Assembly (NCBI GenBank): GCA_025356475.1
Contig: JANXSX010000043.1
Location: 62,001 to 126,000, forward strand
Direction of reading: 5' to 3'
DNA from: Isosphaeraceae bacterium
Lineage (GTDB): Bacteria > Planctomycetota > Planctomycetia > Isosphaerales > Isosphaeraceae
Length of the DNA stretch: 64,000 nucleotides
The position numbers and the translations under genes were made by a program. A model generated the notes under the pieces. That model was not told the DNA's origin and searched no databases. It saw nothing but the letters and a program-made list of their open reading frames with translations. Positions within the stretch are counted from its first letter, which is position 1. The number at the start of each line of letters is the position of its first letter. Positions 30,813 through 35,715 of this stretch are shown here, piece by piece.

Positions 30813-31454
30813 TCAACGCGGGAGGCGTCCGAACCGACGCGAGACGGGTGGCTGCAAGATCTCGTTTAGGATGAACGCTTCGCGAATTCGGGCCGGGTCC
30901 ATCAAGGTGATGCGAACGTCGGTGAGCCCCTGAGACCTCGGCCCGTAGGCAACTTCAGCGGCATGGCTTTTGTTGCTAAGGTCACCAACTGCGGTGAACG
31001 GCGTGTTAGTGCGGGTAAGGTCGATCGGCTTCATCTGCTGGCTGACGTTCGATCCGAGCGCTCCGCCGAGTAGCTCGGCTTCGATAGAAGCAGCTTTTTT
31101 GGCGGGTGCCGGTTTCGATCGGGTCCGACGCTGGGCTGGATTGACCTTCATGAGGGGCCGAGGTTGTTCAGCTCGGATCACCAAGATGTCTTCTTCTCGA
31201 ATCTCCGCAGGCGATCGCCTAACGGGAGTCTCGAAACCCGATTCCTGCGACTGGGAGCCCGGCCCCCACCGCATCGAAACATCTCGACCGACAACGGGTT
31301 CTTGTAGCGGGCGCGGGGGAGCGGCACCGATCGGCCCTCCAAAGCCCTGCCGGGGAGGCAAGGGCTTGGCGTCCCGGTTGAAAATTGAGGTCAGCAACCA
31401 GATCGCCAGGAAGCTCAGCGGGACGATCGCGCGAATCACGTCTTCGAGGCCCAT
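30813..31454 (-). CDS. small membrane-anchored protein of unknown function
   Basis: 213 residues. One N-terminal transmembrane helix (about 8-25, IVPLSFLAIWLLTSIF), a Pro/Arg-rich disordered middle (about 30-150) and a conserved-looking C-terminal segment LMDPARIREAFILNEILQPP. The last part suggests a docking helix. No known domain. It is the last gene of the nfeD/floA operon (57 bases after floA), so it may be an accessory to the flotillin membrane domain; that is inference from position only. Confidence 0.7.
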   Translation of the reverse strand: MGLEDVIRAIVPLSFLAIWLLTSIFNRDAKPLPPRQGFGGPIGAAPPRPLQEPVVGRDVSMRWGPGSQSQESGFETPVRRSPAEIREEDILVIRAEQPRPLMKVNPAQRRTRSKPAPAKKAASIEAELLGGALGSNVSQQMKPIDLTRTNTPFTAVGDLSNKSHAAEVAYGPRSQGLTDVRITLMDPARIREAFILNEILQPPVSRRFGRLPR

Positions 31455-31511: not shown

Positions 31512-32561
31512 TCAATTCGTAGTCTGGGGCTGTCGTGTGTTGTTATTGATACCGGTACCAGCGATCGCCGCCCGCATCTCGGTATCAGCCTGGAGGTTAC
31601 GCAAGTTGTAGTAATCGCTGATGCCGAGATTACCTTTACGGAACGCTTCCGCGATCGCCATGGGGACCTCGGCTTCGGCCAAGATGACTTTGGCCCGATT
31701 CTCTTGAACAGCGGCGACCATCTCCTGCTCCTTGGCCACCGCGAATGCCCGACGCTCCTCCGCTTTAGCACGGGCCACGCGCGTATCGGCCTCGGCCTGG
31801 GCCGCCTGGAGGTTGGCCCCGATGTTATCGCCCACATCAATGTCGGCGATGTCGATCGAGAGGATCTCGAAGGCCGTACCGGCGTCGAGACCTTTCTCCA
31901 GCACTCGTTTCGAGATCATGTCCGGGTTTTCGAGCACCAGCTTGTGGCTGGCAGCGGAACCGATGGTCGTAACGATCCCTTCGCCAACACGCGCGATGAT
32001 CGTTTCCTCGGTGGCACCACCGACGAGTCGGTCGATGTTGGTCCGCACGGTCACGCGTGCCTTGGCCTTCAACTGAATCCCGTCCTTGGCGACGGCATCG
32101 ACGGTCTGGCGGCCCTTGGTGGGGTCAGGGCAATCGATCACCTTGGGATTCACACTTGTCTGGACAGCATCGAGTACATTTCGGCCTGCAAGATCGATGG
32201 CGGCGGCCCGTTTGTAGGTCAAAGGGATATCCGCGCGATTGGCGGCGATCAATGCTCGGACCACGTTGGGCACATTCCCTCCGGCGAGGTAATGTGCCTC
32301 AAGGCTCCTCGTGGTGATCCCATCTTTCTCAGTGAGACCGGCCTGGATGGCCATGATCTTCGACCTGACGATGATATTCGGATTAACCTTCCGAAATGAC
32401 ATGCCGATCAACTCAAGAATTCCCACATTCGAGTGAGTCATCTTCGCCTGAATCCAGAGGTTGAAATACTTGGCGAAGAAGATGAATGCGAATAGCGAGA
32501 AGAGAGCTATCGCGACGATGAAGAAAATCAAGTAGATCTGACTAGGGTTTTGACCCATCAT
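31512..32561 (-). CDS. floA: flotillin-like protein FloA
   Basis: 349 residues. An N-terminal hydrophobic hairpin (about 9-35, [20 protein letters not shown]) anchors it in the membrane; then an SPFH-like domain follows ([58 protein letters not shown]). The C-terminal coiled coil (about 235-320) is rich in Ala/Glu/Lys repeats. All match the bacterial FloA/YqfA family, which organises membrane microdomains. Its position directly after a short nfeD gene is the standard arrangement in many phyla and supports the call. Confidence 0.95.
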
Positions 32562-32616: not shown

Positions 32617-33129
32617 TCACATATCATCAAAGGTTGGTAACGACTGTTGCGGGGCTGTCCGAACCACGAGCTGACCTGCCTGGACCCGAACGACTTGAAT
32701 GAGAGTCCCTGACTCGATCAAGCCTGACTCTGCCATCGCATCAAGACGTCGCCCTTCGAGATCGACGGATCCTGAAGGACGTAAAGGCGTCAGCGAACGT
32801 CCGATTTGACCGATGAGATGGTCGAGTCGACCACCCCCGTGCGAAACGGTCATTTCCTCAGCTTCGGGAGGAGTCAGGAAAACCTTCTTGGCGAAGGGAG
32901 TCTTGGGCCAGAGGTAGACAGCGTACATCAGTGTGAGCGGCATTAATAAAACGTCGGTCAGCAAGAAGTAAAGGCCATACTCCGTCTGGGTGAAGGCCTG
33001 CCAGAGACTCGCAAGCAGGAGCCCGCCAGCCAGTAAACCGATCATTCCCCCCGAGGGGACGAACACCTCGGCGATGAGCAAGATCAGCCCGAAGACGAGA
33101 AACAAGATCGCCCAAAGAACAGCACTCAT
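32617..33129 (-). CDS. short NfeD-family membrane protein
   Basis: 170 residues from the ATG at 33129 (an upstream in-frame start adds a Gly/Ser-rich stub). Two to three transmembrane helices (about 4-65) are followed by an OB-fold NfeD C-terminal domain (about 105-160: IGQIGRSLTPLRPSGSVDLEGRRLDA, SGTLIQVVRVQAGQLVV). This short type lacks the protease domain and is the usual partner of flotillins, binding through the OB domain. It lies 55 bases upstream of floA. Confidence 0.9.
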   Translation of the reverse strand: MSAVLWAILFLVFGLILLIAEVFVPSGGMIGLLAGGLLLASLWQAFTQTEYGLYFLLTDVLLMPLTLMYAVYLWPKTPFAKKVFLTPPEAEEMTVSHGGGRLDHLIGQIGRSLTPLRPSGSVDLEGRRLDAMAESGLIESGTLIQVVRVQAGQLVVRTAPQQSLPTFDDM

Positions 33130-33355
33130 GGAATCAGAGGATCCAGATCCGGTCACCATTTAGCGACCAACGAGACTCAACCACATCGCTAACCTAGTGT
33201 ATGCCGACAGGGGGTCAACATGCCAACCCTTCCCGCCCGGTTGACCAGGATTGACTGATTGAGAGGGCTGCCGAACCAATTCGATGCCTTCGGAACCCCT
33301 CTCTGGCCGGAGAAGGGACCCAACTCTCACGGTAGGTCAAGCTCCTGAATTAGGT

Positions 33356-35536
33356 TCAGGAATCGACCCGCTTCACGATGACCTTGGAGCCTTGAACGTC
33401 GACAACTTCGATCAGCGTGTCAGGTTCCACAAAAAAACCATCAGCAGAGACGTCGATCAATAAGTCACCGAACCGGGCTTTGCCCGAAGGCCGAAGCGTC
33501 GTCGTCGTCCGGCCAGTCTCACCAATCAAGAAATAGAGCGACTCTAACCCATCAGTGGCAACAGGCTTAACATTCGGGTCAGCGTCGGCATCCCAGGGCT
33601 CAGGCTTGAGGATCAGGCGGTTGAAAAGCGGGATCGACGGGAAGTATCGACCCAGAACCACAGCCCCACCTGCAACAGCAGCCAGCGCCAGAGTGATCTG
33701 GAACAGGGTTTGACCCATCTGGCGGTATTCATACTCTTGAGTTGGCCAGATAAATGTATGACTTGCCATAACCAAACTTACCAGAATGAGCAGAATCCCA
33801 CTCATGCCGAAAACGCCGAAGCCCGGGAACACGAACAACTCAAGTGCCAGGCTGACCATGCCAACAACAAACAGCATGATCTCTAACTGGTCCGCCGTTC
33901 CGCTCAGGTAACGGCTCCAGAAGAAGAGCAAAAAAGCCAGGGCTGAAGTGATCGCCGGCAAGCCAATCCCCGGCAGCTTCAACTCAAGAATCAGCATAAA
34001 CAGACCCACAAACAACAGCACCCAGCTCACAAATGGATCATTCAAGGTCGTCACCAACGCATCGACCCAGGTCGGGCCGTTGACTTTGATGTCCTTACCT
34101 TTTAGCCCGTAGATCGCTTTGAATTCCTCTTCGTTGGGAACCACTTCGCCCAACCCGTAGGCAACCGCATCGTCGGCGGAGAGGGTCAACACTTGGCCGG
34201 GTGCTTTCTTGACGATTCGATCGACGTACCGATCGGGTTCAGCTTCCAACTGGGCCGGCAGGAAGTAGCCAACCGCGCCGGTTTTCGTATCCTTACACTG
34301 AATGATCGTCACTTGTGGATCAACCATCGCACGAGCGACGGCTCCGGAGTGGCCATTCATCTCCGCGAGATTCTCAGCGCGGTCGGCGATCGCCTCGCGT
34401 TGACTCGGACTCAGTTCGACCGCTTGCCCGTTGCGAGCTACGACAATGTGATTCACACCACCGATCTCGCCACCTTTTCGGAACACAATGTCATCGCAGG
34501 CGAGTGCAACAAGCGTAGACACCCCAACCGCCCGATCATCAATATAAGCAACTGTCTTCATGTCTGTAATGCGCGAGATCGTATCTGCAAGGTTGTCGGC
34601 GGCGCGATCGGCACCTCCATCGCTATTGATTTGGAACAGGAGGAGATTCACTTGCTCTTCACGAGCCTGTTCAATCCGGCGGCGAACGTAGGATTCTTTG
34701 ATCCCGTCGATCGGTCCATTGATCGCGATCCAGACAGGCTTAACGACCTGGCCGAGGGTCGGATCATCCGAGGACGACTGACCGGCGAGCCGGTAACGAT
34801 TGGCAACCTCGATTCGCTGGTCAGCCAGGAGTTGGGCGAACCCCTCGGCCCTAGCCCGTTTGGCGGTCAGAACCCCGCGACGCCCTCCCTCCCAGGCCGA
34901 CACATTCTCAATGACCTGGTGCGACTTCTCGAACTCGGGCAGGTTCTCAGCAAGGACGTAATGAAGCTGCTTATCGGCGGTACGAATCGCCCGAAGGTCG
35001 GCGTCTTTATCGAGCATTCCTAGCAATAAATCTGCCTGGCGACCCGTGCGCTGGGCCAACTGTCGGATTGTTTCTCGAAACGACGCCTTCACATCCTGCC
35101 CATCTGGAGTAATCGGCCCTAACGACGCGTCTTGACCCATCACGATCTCGTCGCAGGCGAGCGCGGCCAGGACCGCGTAGCCTGTTAAGGGCTCGGGAAC
35201 GAAGGCCACCGTCTGCTTGGCCCCTTCGAGCTTTGTCGAGAGGAACTCAGCGAGGTCGTACGAGGCACCGATGCGGCTTTGACCAGGAGCCTTCCGCCCG
35301 GGGCGGATCTCGAAAACGAGAATTGCCTCGCGTCCCTTGCTACTCGACCTTGCGATGAATTGCTTCGTAGAAGCGCTGATCTGGCCGAGCGTCTCATCGA
35401 CGATCGGCTCATCAATCGAGAAGAATTGACCAGGAATGGTATCGGGGTCCTCAGCGCGGGCAGAGATCGCCATCATCGAGATCAGCGACAGAACACCCAG
35501 GACAAGAAGACGCGCGGCTGGCGAAGGCCTGAACAT
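33356..35536 (-). CDS. long NfeD protein with two ClpP-like domains
   Basis: 726 residues from the ATG at 35536, which opens a signal peptide (MFRPSPAARLLVLGVLSLIS...ARA); an ATG at 35599 is an alternative. Two ClpP/crotonase-fold domains (about 30-215 and 230-410) are followed by four or five transmembrane helices (about 470-580) and a C-terminal OB-fold (about 655-720). In NfeD1b/SppA relatives the nucleophile Ser sits in an AASAG motif; here the matching segments are LTGYAVLAALACDEI and AVGVSTLVALACDDI, with Gly at that place in both. Inference: proteolytically inactive scaffold of the flotillin system. First gene of the operon. Confidence 0.88.
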   Translation of the reverse strand: MFRPSPAARLLVLGVLSLISMMAISARAEDPDTIPGQFFSIDEPIVDETLGQISASTKQFIARSSSKGREAILVFEIRPGRKAPGQSRIGASYDLAEFLSTKLEGAKQTVAFVPEPLTGYAVLAALACDEIVMGQDASLGPITPDGQDVKASFRETIRQLAQRTGRQADLLLGMLDKDADLRAIRTADKQLHYVLAENLPEFEKSHQVIENVSAWEGGRRGVLTAKRARAEGFAQLLADQRIEVANRYRLAGQSSSDDPTLGQVVKPVWIAINGPIDGIKESYVRRRIEQAREEQVNLLLFQINSDGGADRAADNLADTISRITDMKTVAYIDDRAVGVSTLVALACDDIVFRKGGEIGGVNHIVVARNGQAVELSPSQREAIADRAENLAEMNGHSGAVARAMVDPQVTIIQCKDTKTGAVGYFLPAQLEAEPDRYVDRIVKKAPGQVLTLSADDAVAYGLGEVVPNEEEFKAIYGLKGKDIKVNGPTWVDALVTTLNDPFVSWVLLFVGLFMLILELKLPGIGLPAITSALAFLLFFWSRYLSGTADQLEIMLFVVGMVSLALELFVFPGFGVFGMSGILLILVSLVMASHTFIWPTQEYEYRQMGQTLFQITLALAAVAGGAVVLGRYFPSIPLFNRLILKPEPWDADADPNVKPVATDGLESLYFLIGETGRTTTTLRPSGKARFGDLLIDVSADGFFVEPDTLIEVVDVQGSKVIVKRVDS

Positions 35537-35715
35537 AAGTCGACGGACTCCCACCAGAGTACATCCCAGAAGCCCTTGCCCCGCGTCCGAGTAGGCCATC
35601 GACGAGCCTAGCCAGACACGTCAGACTTCCGAGCCATCCTAATCAGAAAGGAACGGCTCGAATCGTCCGCTCAAAGGGTCGAGTGGTCGGCCTGAGCCTA
35701 CTTCACTCATACCTT

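Follow-up and report, generated by a model that had tools for sequence, protein, structure and literature searches.

Genes and domains at the locus

In the window, by which we mean the whole 64,000-nucleotide stretch of Isosphaeraceae DNA that was analysed, the long form of nfeD occupies positions 33356..35599 (747 codons) and encodes an NfeD protein with two ClpP domains; all features given below lie, like this gene, on the reverse strand. Its likely start is Met22, at position 35536, the same start as in the original prediction. A likely signal peptide of 28 residues runs from there to Ala49 and ends in SARA (35453..35536); it was read from the sequence by eye, and the structural model has a helix at residues 27-44. 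Domain 1 (residues 52-280; 34760..35446) has a predicted ClpP fold, lacks a nucleophile and, by its sequence, also lacks the GG motif. Domain 2 (residues 284-455; 34235..34750), assigned by Pfam, profile and structure match as NfeD1b_N, retains the GG motif and has lost the catalytic dyad. The NfeD membrane domain (33635..34036), with five long helices in the model (522-655), and a C-terminal, putatively partner-binding domain of OB type (33365..33532) follow, both recognised by Pfam and by the model; the name “OB” is taken from other NfeD proteins (PMC11222466).

The best stretch for NfeD1b_N is 291-438, with 91.8 bits, and the membrane domain (524-648) and the C-terminal NfeD domain (691-744) also score above their cut-offs. 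Domain 1 by itself matches only SDH_protease (127-232), at 29.7 bits, below the cut-off of 31.3. The protein thus shows the parts of an NfeD1b protein in their order: ClpP-like N-terminal part, NfeD membrane domain and C-terminal NfeD domain (PF25145, PF24961, PF01957).

A gene for a short NfeD of 180 amino acids (32617..33159) lies 196 nucleotides downstream of the long nfeD, and 55 nucleotides further on lies the gene for a FloA flotillin of 349 amino acids (31512..32561; E 2e-153), so that an SPFH gene adjoins, as is typical of NfeD1b. After FloA comes an open reading frame of 213 amino acids (30813-31454) that has no Pfam or NCBIfam match and finds weak similarity, among the fetched loci, only in L014 and L275 (the labels G for genomes, L for loci and f for families are ours).

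Residues at the catalytic positions

The archaeal protease PH1510 works with the dyad Ser97 and Lys138, and its mutants S97A and K138A are reported to be inactive (PMC3795559). A phmmer search against solved structures pairs domain 2 with PH1510-N at E 0.0055, and sets Gly359, in the motif AVGVST, opposite Ser97 and Ser399 opposite Lys138; the two codons are at 34523..34525 and 34403..34405. A MAFFT alignment of 207 sequences, among them PH1510-N and 32 single-domain NfeD1b proteins picked for this alignment, yields identical columns, and in the single-domain proteins these columns hold Ser in 32/32 and Lys in 32/32. Profile-profile comparison by hhalign matches domain 1 to domain 2 at E 6.8e-34, so the two domains are homologous, and aligns Gly140 (35180..35182), the domain 1 position of Ser97, with Gly359. 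The profile of domain 2 also matches PH1510-N (2deo) at E 6.7e-20. Because of the gaps in its loop, the Lys column is less certain than the Ser column; a scan of the sequence finds no Lys in domain 2 between 375 and 436, that is, from 376 to 435.

It had been predicted that Gly replaces the nucleophilic Ser in both domains; phmmer, MAFFT and hhalign agree on this, and the Lys of domain 2 is gone as well. As far as aligned residues can tell, it is confirmed that both ClpP domains are without a catalytic nucleophile, and the observation is real: compared with a PH1510-type Ser-Lys peptidase (STOPP), the protein has Gly140 and Gly359 for the catalytic Ser, and Ser399 for the Lys. The Ser of AVGVST, Ser361, had been named as a possible occupant of the nucleophile site; it lies two residues past it. 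Where domain 2 has Gly (72 homologues), the position of Ser361 holds Ser in just 10 and Ala in 53, which puts it out as a substitute nucleophile.

Homologues in the family, the class and beyond

For the residue counts, 174 distinct long hits were taken, of which the profile of domain 1 (E 1e-5) keeps 172, dropping L135 and L194. These 172 two-domain homologues come from genomes of the class, from those of other classes in the phylum and from named records. The counts leave aside 64 further hits, which are single-domain, truncated or not matched by domain 1. The nucleophile column of domain 1 contains Gly in 163 rows, Arg in 4, Ala in 4, Leu in 1 and Ser in none. That of domain 2 contains Gly in 72, Ser in 61, Asp in 20, Ala in 15, Asn in 3 and Gln in 1. 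Combined with the less certain Lys column, domain 2 has Ser and Lys in 40 of the 172, the Ser without the Lys in 21, the Lys without the Ser in 5, and neither in 106; with the two dropped rows included (n=174), there are 63 with Ser and 42 with an intact dyad.

The family of the window (f1, read as Isosphaeraceae) has Gly in domain 1 in 40/40 rows, and in domain 2 Gly in 39 and Asn in 1, so that chance is not at issue. Whether the Gly is fixed in homologues was the check proposed with the original prediction, and for this family the answer is Gly/Gly in all but one of the 40, which is Gly/Asn: the protein is thus an inherited pseudoprotease and not the oddity of one genome. Family f2, which we read as Planctomycetaceae from its grouping in the tree with a Gimesia record, has Gly in domain 1 in 24/24 and an intact Ser and Lys in domain 2 in 23/24. 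Family f3, read as Gemmataceae, has Ser in domain 2 in 0/22.

A search with the whole protein finds a match in 40/40 genomes, its own included, G021 (68% complete) contributing a short NfeD only. Over the 45 genomes of the family, 42 match over most of the protein; the match is cut by the contig in G015 and G187, and G021 has only the short NfeD and a weak hit. In the class, 108/108 genomes match the alignment at E 1e-40. The match spans both ClpP domains in 105; in G015 a contig end truncates it, and in G261 and G230 it is confined to the membrane and C-terminal parts. The duplication of the protease domain, first described as unusual, is consequently standard in the class.

In five class genomes (G032, G036, G204, G215 and G265), a two-domain copy whose domain 2 is dead coexists with an intact single-domain copy. 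Among the 45 family genomes no second match of NfeD1b length was found at E 0.001, and there is therefore no active copy of such a kind as backup. The other hits in the family at this threshold are short NfeD proteins, fragments, and frames of 290-830 amino acids whose match to domain 2 is limited to about 80 positions; we take these frames for SppA-like proteins.

Most of the dead rows retain the GG motif of domain 2, with G328 in 96/106 and G329 in 89/106. There is also one conserved Cys in each ClpP domain, Cys149 (35153-35155) in 166/174 rows and Cys368 (34496-34498) in 167/174; the equivalent of Cys368 occurs as well in 25/32 of the catalytically intact single-domain proteins. Three records titled Candidatus Kuenenia stuttgartiensis (L075, L076 and L084) contain an NfeD of Isosphaeraceae or Planctomycetaceae type, L084 by its place in the tree, and these titles are probably wrong.

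History of the dyad and selection on the dead domains

The main tree was built on the C-terminal part, with the ClpP domains left out (180 rows), and a second, of 72 rows, on everything from domain 2 onwards except the catalytic columns. In the C-terminal tree the family of the window forms one clade (34 rows), and Gemmataceae group together with f82 in another (25 rows). In a third clade, of 49 rows and mostly linked to floA, the Lys has nearly vanished, and Ser persists in some members. A fourth clade, of 46 rows, is made up of two-domain and single-domain proteins with the dyad intact, except for L246 and L084, in which it is broken. The relationships among these clades are poorly supported, and the order of events is not fixed by the tree.

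The state of the domain 2 dyad changes at least 5 times on the 180-row tree and at least 3 times on the 72-row tree, and the Ser alone at least 15 times on the 180-row tree, in counts that do not separate gain from loss. The changes in the domain 2 dyad are most likely losses, since single-domain copies with an intact dyad occur throughout the phylum (32/32 aligned). Domain 1, judged by its column, is an old pseudoprotease.

Ratios of dN/dS were computed on close pairs by the Nei-Gojobori method with our own script, leaving four Ser-only and two mixed pairs out of the medians. The 22 pairs in which domain 2 is dead on both sides have a median of 0.149 for domain 1 and 0.13 for domain 2; the values of both ClpP domains are below 1 in 22/22, the highest for domain 2 being 0.529. 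The six intact pairs have medians of 0.029 and 0.019. The ratio of domain 2 to domain 1 is 1.10 in dead against 0.56 in intact pairs (Mann-Whitney p 0.045), which gives only a hint of relaxed constraint in dead lineages, as the two sets of pairs differ in divergence and base composition. In most pairs the ClpP domains are less constrained than the membrane domain. These values do show that the dead ClpP domains are under purifying selection and not free to drift.

Two class genomes out of 108 (G261 and G230) lack both ClpP domains but retain the membrane and C-terminal parts; the frames of the fetched stretches contain no ClpP remnant at E 1. In G261, floA lies directly downstream of the ClpP-less NfeD. 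The ClpP half and the membrane and C-terminal half are therefore separable. The ClpP-less loci are L275:2794-3699, with floA directly after, and L276:3480-4949.

Such losses would be expected if the ClpP domains were passive remnants on the way to disappearance, in a protein of which only the membrane and C-terminal domains matter. The higher dN/dS of the ClpP domains in dead lineages (for domain 2, a median of 0.13 in the 22 dead pairs and of 0.019 in the 6 intact ones) and the variety of residues at the Ser position of domain 2, be it Gly, Asp, Ala, Asn or Gln, fit this explanation too. However, both domains are matched in all but three of the class genomes, one of the three being cut by a contig end; every dead pair has dN/dS below 1; the Gly of domain 1 is kept in more of the 172 rows than the Ser or the Lys of domain 2; and both domains model with high confidence. 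We consider it unlikely that the domains are in passive decay.

Predicted structure

The AlphaFold model of the whole protein, computed from 53 aligned sequences, has a mean pLDDT of 86.9 and a pTM of 0.68. In it, an N-terminal helix leads into two alpha/beta domains, which are followed by five long helices and, at the C-terminus, a beta domain. Gly140 is at the start of the helix 140-147 and Gly359 is two residues before the helix 361-366; both helices come after the equivalent strand of their domain. Modelled alone, domain 1 reaches a pLDDT of 94.1, and its best structural match is the PH1510-N mutant 6m4b (Z 17.3, rmsd 2.9, 174 residues aligned). The same structure is the best match of the domain 2 model (283-510), with Z 23.1, rmsd 2.8 and 182 residues aligned. 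The models thus show both ClpP-fold domains to be present and predict that they fold well.

Crotonases share this fold and appear in the structural match list of domain 1. By sequence, the domain 1 profile finds crotonases in the PDB, the best being the enoyl-CoA hydratase 1uiy at a weak E of 0.0067, and PH1510 is absent from its four hits. One may thus imagine a crotonase-like site that binds or handles acyl groups, or else an active hydrolase with another nucleophile, either Ser361, residue 139 or one of the conserved Cys, whose high conservation would suit that part. In the structural list of domain 1, however, PH1510-N outranks the crotonases. The candidate residues fare no better: over the 174 rows, 14 have Ser at position 361, and at position 139 there are 55 with Thr and 32 with Ser; a Ser does occur within three residues of the site in 59/174 rows for domain 1 and in 34/111 non-Ser rows for domain 2, but its place is not fixed. 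The second Cys, nine residues along from the site, is common to the intact single-domain proteins. Residue 139, being variable, and the Cys are consequently rejected as nucleophiles, and an activity of either sort seems very unlikely.

An alignment error, with the true nucleophile elsewhere in each domain, is hardly credible: the loops near the Lys are gapped and make that column less sure, but the Ser column is the same by three methods, the models put both Gly between the equivalent strand and helix, and the same alignment recovers the full dyad in all 32 single-domain relatives.

The link with FloA

A FloA (PF12127) is present in 108/108 class genomes. The class sample includes 28 genomes of the family. 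In 10 of them floA is within 5 kb of the long nfeD, 9 have it on that contig but farther away, and the other 9 have it on a different contig only; the distances were read by hand, with G191 added, and assembly breaks inflate the last count. The complete nfeD/floA operon of the original prediction is thus there in the window, but only these 10 of the 28 family genomes have floA so close. Many class genomes outside the family of the window have, besides the main floA, another FloA-type match that covers about 290 positions.

After setting aside 41 of the 174 rows for too little flank, floA adjoins 1 row with an intact dyad and is absent next to 33, and it adjoins 80 broken or half-broken rows and is absent next to 19. 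A test that takes the tree into account, with 7 independent pairs of rows, gives, as a mean of 200 random pairings, 0.3 with the two traits going the same way and 0.2 the opposite way. The association is gone once kinship is counted, the events being few, and proximity to floA as a driver of domain death is not supported.

SPFH5 genes such as yqfA are described as pairing with ClpP-containing NfeD genes, in a subfamily that occurs in planctomycetes (PMC2636767). The predicted role as flotillin scaffold or trap is plausible.

Comparison with known systems

The tandem arrangement has a counterpart in E. coli SppA (protease IV), which also has two ClpP-fold domains per chain and whose active site takes Lys and Ser from different domains. 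SppA does have an active site, whereas the protein of the window is without Ser at either nucleophile position, so that a dyad across its two domains is rejected too. The modelled tandem superposes poorly on SppA (330 residues aligned, rmsd 20.3), but with a pTM of 0.68 the placing of its domains relative to each other may be wrong.

PH1510 (1510-N), the stomatin-specific NfeD1b protease of Pyrococcus horikoshii, has the same fold in the same N-terminal position next to an SPFH gene, and is the best structural match of both domains. In contrast to its single ClpP domain with Ser97-Lys138 (PMC3795559), the window protein has two domains, and the dyad in neither.

Two kinds of relative have kept the dyad. 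The Planctomycetaceae-type NfeD of f2 (for example L032 and L029) has the same tandem with the same Gly in domain 1, but a domain 2 whose Ser and Lys are kept in 23/24; floA was not found adjoining the f2 loci that have at least 2500 bases downstream. The single-domain NfeD1b proteins of Pirellulaceae and Phycisphaerales (for example L144, L127, L138 and L148) share the ClpP, membrane and C-terminal domains and, at L138 and L148, adjoin a short nfeD and floA like the gene of the window. Unlike the latter, they have one ClpP domain, with Ser and Lys intact.

A possible role for a dead protease

The inference of a doubly dead protease holds up, with the residues lost in both domains and the loss fixed in the family; a planctomycete pseudoprotease NfeD was not found in the openly licensed literature that we searched. 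We think it fairly probable that the protein is a tandem pseudoprotease of NfeD1b type, with ClpP domains that form a non-cutting module for binding or assembly, and a remainder that docks FloA. In the family of the window, it probably holds or organises other molecules instead of cutting them.

Domains 1 and 2 would face the periplasm: a likely signal peptide precedes them, and the membrane helices that separate them from the C-terminal domain, whose counterpart in other NfeD proteins is cytosolic, are odd in number. There, they may bind peptides or clients, or hold an oligomer together, without cutting. The mutant K138A of 1510-N was crystallised with a substrate peptide, one peptide lying in a tunnel between two protomers (PMC3795559), and thus a dead NfeD1b domain can still bind substrate. 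The membrane and OB domains would dock on the flotillin FloA and stabilise it; in Staphylococcus, the OB domain of NfeD is reported to bind FloA and to support oligomers (PMC11222466). Since floA is near in only 10/28 family genomes, the partner could instead be the short NfeD or another SPFH protein.

A more specific history, which we offer tentatively as possible but rather unlikely, would have the Planctomycetia convert a membrane protease linked to flotillin into an extracytoplasmic receptor that no longer cuts. The tandem fusion would have given a permanently dead domain 1, which may replace the second protomer of the PH1510 dimer and line the peptide-binding tunnel. Domain 2 would then have lost its dyad in several lineages, some losing the Lys with the Ser lingering, and a related copy away from floA would have kept the proteolytic role. 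If this is true, the protein would act as a sensor in the envelope or as a holder of clients, and be coupled across the membrane to flotillin.

The residue counts bear on annotation as well: calling the two-domain forms serine proteases by family alone would be wrong for most of those sampled, the dyad being intact in 40/172. Intact, half-broken, dead and deleted versions stand side by side in one class, a natural experiment on the role of the NfeD1b protease domain in flotillin and stomatin assemblies that separates catalysis from binding, and both from the functions of the membrane and C-terminal domains.
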